From Cellulomonas hominis (GTDB lineage Bacteria; Actinomycetota; Actinomycetes; Actinomycetales; Cellulomonadaceae), in NCBI RefSeq assembly GCF_014201095.1, contig NZ_JACHDN010000001.1, positions 2,976,001 through 3,040,000 on the forward strand: a DNA stretch of 64,000 bases. The letters run 5' to 3'. Positions 38,646 through 40,483 of this stretch are shown here, piece by piece (within the stretch, counting starts at the first letter, position 1; each line of letters opens with the position of its first letter). The position numbers and the translations under genes were made by a program. Below the pieces are notes generated by a model. The model searched no databases, was not told the origin of the DNA, and was given only the letters and a program-made list of their open reading frames with translations.

Positions 38646-39191
38646 TCAGCCGACGGCGTCGGTCACGGCCTGCTTCGCGGCGGCCGCCTTCGCCACCGCC
38701 GCCTTCGTCGCGCGGGCGTTCTCGACCCGCCACCGCACGCCGGGGCGCCCGGCCGTGTCCGCGGCGGCGATGAGGGCGCCCCCCGACAGCGACAACGCCC
38801 GCAGGAACCGGGCCCGGCGCTCCTTCTTGTCGTGCTCGCCCAGGCGCGCCCGCTCCTTGCGGGACGCCGGGCCGTCGGCGGCGGCCAGCGGCAGCGTGAG
38901 CGCGGCGAGCGTGAGCGCGGCGGTCCGGGGTGCCCGGCCGGTCGCGAGCAGCACGGCGGCCAGCGCGGTGGCGCCGCCGTGCGCGCGCACGACGGCGGTG
39001 AGCTGGCGGTCCGTCGGGTGCCGGTAGGCGTCGAGCGCCCCGCCGAGGGCGCCGGCGGGCACGGCCGCGGTGAGCCGGTCCACCGCCCCGCGCGCCACGG
39101 CGACGTGGGCGGCGGGGTGCCGCAGCGCGTCGACCCCCTCGCCCAGGAACCACGACGCGAACAGCGGTCGGGCGATCCGGCGCAGCAGCAT
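38646..39191 (-). CDS. DoxX-like membrane protein
   Basis: Predicted 181-aa protein resembling the DoxX family. The opening [20 protein letters not shown] and the following helices with [20 protein letters not shown] suit the family. A cytoplasmic segment with [20 protein letters not shown] follows, then an Ala/Lys-rich C-terminal tail. The ATG at 39191 is preceded by GGGAGGA. Actinobacterial DoxX proteins are linked to thiol or oxidative stress, and here the gene is divergent from sigR, which fits but does not prove such a role. Confidence 0.78.
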
Positions 39192-39269
39192 GACGTCCTC
39201 CCTCGCTGGGCCCGCGACGCACGGGCGCCTGCGCCCCAACCTAGTGGCCGCGGATGCTGTGCGCTGCCC

Positions 39270-39297
39270 GGGAATGGACCGGGCTCCCGGCCGCGTT
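39270..39297 (+). promoter_or_regulatory. SigR-type promoter upstream of sigR
   Basis: GGGAAT (39270-39275), a 19-base spacer and GTT (39295-39297) match the SigR/SigH consensus (GGAAT, 18-19 bases, GTT). It would start transcription about 39304-39308, at or just before an in-frame ATG at 39307. Autoregulation of sigR by such a promoter is established in Streptomyces; here it is read from sequence. Confidence 0.75.
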
Positions 39298-39385
39298 GTG
39301 CAGGCCATGAGCTGTTCCACCCTCGACCGGCCCGCGGCCGTGCTCACCGCACCCCCCGCGCCCGGCATCCCCCTCGCGCGCGGAC

Positions 39386-39391
39386 TAGGCT
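39386..39391 (+). promoter_or_regulatory. Second, proximal -10 element of sigR
   Basis: TAGGCT lies eight bases before the proximal sigR ATG at 39400, the spacing expected for a leaderless transcript. No clear -35 is seen. It would give a SigR-independent basal transcript for the short protein. Confidence 0.45.
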
Positions 39392-39399
39392 CGGTGCCG

Positions 39400-40044
39400 A
39401 TGAGCGAGGACACCACCCGCGCCCCCGAGTCCGAGGACGACGCGGCGCGCACCGAGCGGTTCGAGGCCGAGGCGCTGGTCTACCTGGACCAGTTGTACGG
39501 CGCTGCCCTGCGCATGACCCGGAACCCGTCGGACGCGGAGGACCTGGTCCAGGAGACGTTCGCGAAGGCGTTCGCGGCGTTCCACCAGTACCGCCCGGGG
39601 ACGAACCTCAAGGCGTGGCTGTACCGGATCCTGACGAACACGTTCATCAACACGTACCGCAAGAAGCAGCGCGAGCCGCAGAAGTCCCAGGCGGACGAGA
39701 TCGAGGACTGGCAGATCGCGCGCGCCGAGTCGCACACCTCCACGGGCCTGCGGTCCGCCGAGGCGGAGGCGCTCGACCACCTGCCGGACTCCGACGTGAA
39801 GGACGCGCTCGCGCGGCTGCCCGAGGAGTTCCGGATCGCGGTGTACCTGGCGGACGTCGAGGGCTTCGCCTACAAGGAGATCGCCGAGATCATGGGCACC
39901 CCGATCGGGACGGTGATGTCCCGGCTGCACCGCGGACGGGGCCAGCTGCGCGAGATGCTGGCCGACTACGCCCGCGACCGGGGGCTCGTGGCCGCGGCGC
40001 CGGCCGACGAGGCCGGGACGGGATCATCGAGGAGGACGCGATGA
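39400..40044 (+). CDS. sigR: Thiol-oxidative-stress sigma factor SigR (SigH/RpoE family)
   Basis: ECF sigma factor (214 aa from the proximal ATG). Region 2 includes [40 protein letters not shown] and [20 protein letters not shown]. Region 4 includes [20 protein letters not shown] and [20 protein letters not shown]. The sequence is very close to Streptomyces SigR and mycobacterial SigH, which control thioredoxin and mycothiol genes under disulfide stress. An in-frame ATG at 39307 would add 31 residues, recalling the Streptomyces long isoform. rsrA overlaps the stop by four bases. A SigR-type promoter lies upstream. Confidence 0.94.
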
Positions 40045-40337
40045 CGGGCTGGGACGCGGCGGCAGGGGCCGCCGGGGGGACGTCCGAGGGCTGCGGCCCG
40101 GACTGCGAGCAGGCGCTCGGCCGGCTGTTCGCGTACGTGGACCGCGAGCTGGAGCCGCTGGACGCCGCGCGGGTGCGGGAGCACATCGAGGACTGCCGCC
40201 CCTGCCTGGACGAGATGGCCGTCGAGACGATGCTCAAGGAGCTCGTGCGGCGGTGCTGCCAGGAGCAGGCGCCGGCCGACCTGCGGGTCAAGATCCACGC
40301 GCGGCTCACCGAGCTGCGGGTGACCCGGCCCCTGTAG
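40041..40337 (+). CDS. rsrA: Zinc-binding redox anti-sigma factor RsrA
   Basis: Anti-sigma factor (98 aa) that holds SigR inactive until oxidation forms a disulfide and releases zinc. The ZAS motif H-x3-C-x2-C is HIEDCRPC. An upstream cysteine pair ([16 protein letters not shown]) supplies the remaining zinc/redox ligand, and an extra CC occurs in [10 protein letters not shown]. The ATG at 40041 overlaps the sigR stop (ATGA) and has a strong GAGGAGG site inside sigR. This is the standard sigR-rsrA arrangement. A bidirectional terminator follows. Confidence 0.94.
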
Positions 40338-40408: not shown

Positions 40409-40483
40409 TCAGGCGTTGGGGCGCTTGCCGTGGTTGGCGGAGCTCCCGGCGCGGGAACGGCGCTTGCGGCCACGCTTGCTCAT
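40409..40483 (-). CDS. Actinobacterial ribosomal protein bL37
   Basis: Tiny, very basic 24-residue protein (MSKRGRKRRSRAGSSANHGK, then RPNA), matching bL37 seen in structures of mycobacterial 50S subunits. The ATG at 40483 has GGGAGAG nine bases upstream. In other actinobacteria the gene is likewise found next to the SigR/RsrA locus. It is far below usual gene-calling length limits and easily missed. An in-frame longer frame upstream is non-coding. Confidence 0.88.
   Translation of the reverse strand: MSKRGRKRRSRAGSSANHGKRPNA

Follow-up and report, generated by a model that had tools for sequence, protein, structure and literature searches.

A predicted two-promoter arrangement linking transcription start to long and short SigR in Cellulomonas hominis

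Results

The sigR-rsrA locus

The window analysed here, a stretch of 64,000 nucleotides, corresponds to positions 2976001-3040000 of a 4.49-Mb, one-contig, Cellulomonas-like genome. It encodes an ECF sigma factor of the SigR/SigH type and, directly adjacent, an RsrA-type anti-sigma factor, both of which score above the cut-offs of their family models (Table 1); the sigR stop and the rsrA start overlap as ATGA. A divergent gene lies beside the sigR promoters. A sequence-only reading of this DNA had proposed two promoters and two in-frame ATG codons for sigR, the distal one adding 31 residues and the proximal one preceded at eight bases by the hexamer TAGGCT. All of these positions are exact, and the two ATGs share a single open frame at a distance of 93 nt. 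That reading had also noted the lack of a Shine-Dalgarno sequence at either start, and a search for four Shine-Dalgarno tetramers in the 25 nt preceding each codon found none; the rsrA start, by contrast, is preceded by several of them.

Table 1. Features of the sigR region, with coordinates in the window, and SigR-type sites elsewhere in the genome.
Feature	Position	Strand	Basis or remark
Divergent gene	38646-39192	-	no match in NCBIfam and Pfam at 0.001
p2, SigR-type promoter	39270-39297	+	-35 GGGAAT 39270-39275, N19, -10 GTT 39295-39297; conserved upstream of sigR
Distal start ATG; A39307 also predicted p2 transcription start (+1)	39307-39309	+	12 nt after G of GTT
31-codon N-terminal extension	39307-39399	+	open frame
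p1, housekeeping-type promoter, -10 element TAGGCT	39386-39391	+	TANNNT-N8-ATG conserved
Predicted p1 transcription start, G, one base before ATG	39399	+	suggested by pyrimidine/purine step
sigR, short form	39400-40044	+	TIGR02947, 357.3 bits (cut-off 251.55)
sigR, long form	39307-40044 (39307-39399 plus short form)	+	open frame
rsrA, anti-sigma factor	40041-40337	+	TIGR03988, 78 bits (cut-off 62.5); zf-HC2
SigR-type sites L091, L095, L096, L097, L089			before dnaK (HSP70), infC (IF3, N19), ribD, a sigma-70 gene, a luciferase-like monooxygenase gene

Comparative set

Relatives were compared in two sets, which were picked by score and for family breadth and are not a random sample. The first consisted of the best 80 of 566 candidate stretches from relatives' genome contigs, among which the closest sigR relatives were those of Cellulomonas pakistanensis, C. 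hominis and two further Cellulomonas. The second, of 115 loci, combined 70 of the 240 matching genomes of a class search with 45 loci from an order search, in which 138 of 149 genomes matched. With the window included, 187 loci were anchored on the sigR core, and removal of six duplicates left 181 non-redundant loci. From the first 80, L028 and L076 were dropped for want of an anchor and L030, L035 and L059 for want of a promoter match; from the 115, seven were without an anchor and six without a match, and L203 was lost once a spacer of N17 was disallowed. At L167 the script took a second, nearer promoter site.

The distal promoter

The earlier reading had matched p2 to the SigR consensus, given for S. 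coelicolor in the relevant part of PMC3489674 as GGGAAT(G/C)-16-(C/G)GTTG, i.e. GGGAAT-N18-GTT. Both GGGAAT and GTT are present, but the spacer, N19, is one base longer. The same spacer occurs at the infC site of this genome and in 18 of the 75 loci classed below as leaderless, the window counted in. Within 600 nt upstream of the sigR core, GGAAY-N18/19-GTT was found in 171 of the 181 loci, and its reversed control in none of the 181. Judged by sequence alone, a SigR-type promoter lies upstream of sigR as in the SigR/SigR' system of Streptomyces, with N19 instead of N18. The genome holds 10 sites of the form GGGAAT-N18/19-GTT (reversed control, 0); about 10 are expected by a hand estimate that assumes a GC content of 75%, and the site count alone therefore lends no support. 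Extended to GGGAAT-N18/19-GTT-N9-RTG, the pattern has a single match in the 4.49 Mb, at sigR, and none in the reversed control.

A start codon at a fixed distance from the distal promoter

An RTG codon exactly 12 nt past the G of GTT is present in 75 of the 171 promoter-bearing loci (ATG in 39, GTG in 36). It is in frame with sigR in all 75, over 43 different distances from GTT to the core, and the preceding base is invariably a pyrimidine (C in 68, T in 7), as an RNA starting at that codon requires. Decoy GTTs were followed by RTG at offset 12 in 18 of 372 cases, 10 of them in frame; at offsets 18-59, 151 RTG codons were in frame versus 93 out of frame. Where offsets 10-13 hold no in-frame start (79 loci), the phase of GTT was random (27/29/23). 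In-frame starts at offsets 10, 11 and 13 (17 loci) were left out of the leaderless count because the preceding base was a pyrimidine in only 11 of the 17 and because out-of-frame codons also occur there. Collapsing the 75 loci at 90% core identity over 45 residues gave 10 clusters, all in frame and all with a pyrimidine before the distal start, although this partition is too coarse for use. A chance origin of the layout was considered and ruled out by the single genome match with its empty reversed control, the decoy and phase controls and the fixed frame.

It could be argued that the distal promoter yields a leadered or untranslated RNA, that only short SigR is made and that ATG 39307 is incidental. 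GC-rich frames are often open by chance: among the first set's leaderless loci (49 loci, at most 108 nt before the anchor), stops are absent from the sigR frame and number 144 and 20 in the other two, but frame 2 is also stop-free in 34 of these 49 stretches. We nevertheless consider an incidental codon very improbable, given the frame kept in 75/75 loci over so many distances, the pyrimidine before the codon in every one of them and the random phase of loci without such a start. The simplest account is that RNA begins at the distal start codon and that the extension is translated, the upstream start and N-terminal extension then corresponding to those of SigR'.

The offset-12 start was found in 14 coded families (f1, f2, f13, f19, f20, f27, f29, f30, f35, f42, f45, f46, f47 and f49) and, by name, in Cellulomonadaceae, Promicromonosporaceae, Sanguibacteraceae, Nocardioidaceae, Nonomuraea and Kineosporia. 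The remaining 96 of the 171 promoter-bearing loci, including those of the Streptomyces-like family f23, are without it, and the promoter-bearing loci sampled from f10, f23, f24, f22, f44 and f8 all lack it. A quick FastTree tree was built from those 125 of the 171 loci that have a full core; on it, the leaderless label changed 14 times, at least six of these changes being forced by starred branches, compared with 41.5 in shuffles; in-frame starts at offsets 10, 11 and 13 were labelled not leaderless on this tree, which may inflate the change count. In two loci, L048 (Streptacidiphilus) and L032 (Sporichthya-like), an in-frame GTC, known as the unusual start codon of short SigR in Streptomyces, stands 12 nt after GTT, at the place of the leaderless start, possibly by chance.

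The proximal promoter

Of the 75 leaderless loci, 67 have an in-frame ATG separated from an upstream TANNNT by exactly 8 nt, and the hexamer reads TAGGCT in 50 of the 67; the arrangement is missing in the other eight. At the proximal start of the window, the first T of TANNNT is at -14, the gap is 8 and a Shine-Dalgarno tetramer is absent, as in the leaderless 'TA-led' genes of Actinobacteria, which are marked by a TANNNT some 10-12 bp ahead of the start codon (Zheng et al. 2011, partial text of PMC3160421).

As the hexamer sits within the open frame of the extension, and as the residues L-G-S are conserved in near relatives, TAGGCT-N8-ATG might be ordinary coding sequence (L-G-S-x-x-M), with only the long protein made from both RNAs or from one. 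Several features make this improbable. The codon holding the TA of the hexamer is CTA in 46 of the 67 loci, whereas CTA accounts for only 3 of 758 Leu codons in the sigR cores, and the hexamer is therefore conserved as DNA, beyond the protein. GTA, ATA and TTA stand in for CTA, with TA...T retained. Finally, gaps other than 8 nt (range 2-24 nt) occur in only four cases.

Position -2 of p1 is a pyrimidine in 67/67 loci and position -1 a purine in 62/67, a pattern to which codon use in the frame may contribute. This step makes it likelier that p1 RNA begins at G39399 than at A39400, and the base before the proximal ATG is most likely +1. Of the earlier claim that each promoter gives its own leaderless isoform, the distal part is supported by geometry, the start codon lying at the predicted +1; for p1, with a predicted leader of 1 nt, 'leaderless' is approximate. 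The 67 aligned p1 regions have no conserved -35 or AT-rich element further upstream. In S. coelicolor, p1 is under WblC/WhiB7 control; such control was considered for the p1 regions described here and rejected on their alignment.

The N-terminal extension

From the distal start to the proximal ATG, the extensions measure 13-82 codons (median 35, with 32 different lengths among the 67 loci having both) and are rich in Ala, Pro, Gly, Val and Thr. A [DE]RP motif occurs within the first 13 residues of 15 of the 75 leaderless extensions, always at residues 6-9 and with varying synonymous codons (2000 shuffles: mean 0.92, maximum 6); the window carries it as LDRP. Anywhere in the other 96 loci, [DE]RP was found in 19, which is not beyond chance (1000 shuffles: mean 9.0, maximum 21). 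Ten of these 19 lie 5-6 codons after an in-frame ATG or GTG (12 if TTG is admitted), and some of the loci are Shine-Dalgarno-led. We treat the N-terminal motif as a lead only. Residue 3 is Cys, encoded by TGT or TGC, in 21 of the 75 leaderless extensions, namely the window (39313-39315) and 20 relatives.

SigR-type sites elsewhere in the genome

Five of the nine other GGGAAT-N18/19-GTT sites lie 50-151 nt before an open reading frame of a telling family (Table 1), and it is these positions, not the number of sites, that make them credible. The sigma-70 gene concerned encodes sigma-70 regions 1.2, 2 and 3. Together with dnaK, ribD and the luciferase-like monooxygenase gene it presumably fits a SigR regulon, and infC is a SigR target in Streptomyces according to the part of PMC5472188 available to us. 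The five sites are predicted to constitute a small SigR regulon. Among the remaining four, the open reading frames behind L092 and L098 gave no family. The genome has four clpP matches (L214-L217), arranged as two pairs; since no SigR-type (GGAA-type) site occurs in the 1.5 kb upstream of any of them, the sequence does not show this element of the Streptomyces loop, clp genes under SigR control.

Discussion

Our analysis suggests, with a probability of about 0.78, that two promoters drive sigR, each joined directly to an in-frame start of its own, so that promoter choice would set whether long or short SigR is made. Both promoters would probably give leaderless or 1-nt-leader RNAs. The sequence-only reading had proposed isoform choice by transcription start alone; such a choice predicts a fixed geometry at both starts, as is seen at the distal (75/75) and the proximal one (67/75). 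At rest, the housekeeping-type p1 would start RNA at about G39399, with a leader of 0-1 nt, giving short SigR from ATG 39400, which would be held by RsrA. Upon thiol oxidation of RsrA, free SigR would transcribe its own gene from p2, and the RNA, starting at the A of ATG 39307, would be leaderless and encode long SigR with its 31 extra residues. As is the case for SigR' in Streptomyces, the long form probably has a short life, which would make the response transient. The comparison supports the fixed geometry, translation of the extension and conservation of the proximal hexamer at the DNA level; the actual RNA starts, the induction and the difference in stability we infer.

Alternatively, both isoforms might exist and the long form might differ from the short one in activity, RsrA binding or redox sensing by Cys3 rather than in stability. 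The recurrence of Cys at residue 3 and the lack of a SigR-type site upstream of the clpP genes would agree with such a difference. We still consider it unlikely: Cys3 is missing from 54 of the 75 leaderless extensions, and in S. coelicolor both forms are described as binding core polymerase and transcribing, the long form having a half-life of about 10 min (PMC4921905, in part).

Isoform choice by transcription start is probably a leaderless variant of the Streptomyces SigR/SigR' switch. The S. coelicolor system (sigRp1/sigRp2; Kim et al. 2009, as cited in PMC4921905 and PMC5472188) is likewise built on sigR-rsrA: one promoter, dependent on SigR, lies upstream and another further downstream, and an earlier start in the same frame lengthens the protein at its N-terminus; as far as the available sections of PMC4921905 and PMC5472188 go, long SigR has 55 (or 58) extra residues there, compared with 31 in C. 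hominis, and is a short-lived Clp substrate. Translation of the S. coelicolor short form begins at GTC, for which there is an extensive ribosome-binding site (same sections), whereas in C. hominis the distal start is predicted to coincide with +1 and the proximal one to lie at +1 or +2. In seven Streptomyces-like f23 loci, the long form (MGST...) follows a purine-rich stretch (AGGAG/GAGGAA) and starts well downstream of GTT, by 52-63 nt in five loci and by 132 nt in one, L167 being measured from a different site.

The TA-led genes share with sigR a TANNNT at a fixed short distance before a start that lacks a Shine-Dalgarno sequence; sigR differs in having two such starts, one of them set by the -10 element of an alternative sigma factor and not by TANNNT (PMC3160421, in part). 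Leaderless isoform ORFs are already known as a class from M. tuberculosis, as is a leaderless p1 of sigE (portions of PMC9094748 and PMC4921905). In the former, an RNA that begins with an in-frame RUG encodes an isoform with another N-terminus; they were identified across the genome by mapping start sites and ribosomes, and many of them are regarded as pervasive translation or mis-annotation, while sigR/sigH is not treated in the account of them within the sections of PMC9094748 at hand. The related sigma gene sigE has, besides its leaderless p1, an upstream promoter recognisable by SigE or SigH, from which the passages on sigE in PMC4921905 describe no leaderless long form; its p1 has a WhiB7 motif, whereas the p1 regions of sigR aligned here share no AT-rich or -35 element. 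The titles and abstracts of a literature search described no leaderless long SigR, though SigR papers of 2009 and 2012 may mention one, and a search for Cellulomonas transcription start sites with 'leaderless' found none.

If the proposed promoter-start coupling is true, sigR would offer a clear example of a bacterial protein isoform determined solely by the position at which RNA polymerase begins, a ribosome-binding site playing no part, and the duration of the response might be set in the same way. The geometry is simple enough for sequence-based prediction of long/short SigR pairs, and comparing leaderless with Shine-Dalgarno-led lineages allows one to ask which part of the isoform switch is selected. 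It might tentatively be speculated, at somewhat less than even odds for the whole, that in many actinobacterial families isoform choice is hard-wired by GTT-N9-RTG for a leaderless long form and TANNNT-N8-ATG for a nearly leaderless short one, that lineages have repeatedly swapped this layout with a Shine-Dalgarno-led long form while keeping the extension, and that the conserved part of the extension, a short N-terminal tag in which residues 6-9 often hold [DE]RP, carried on a tether of variable length, is a candidate degron.

As a separate observation, the minus strand at 40409-40483 of the window encodes a 24-residue basic protein, MSKRGRKRRSRAGSSANHGKRPNA, which we take to resemble the small ribosomal protein bL37.
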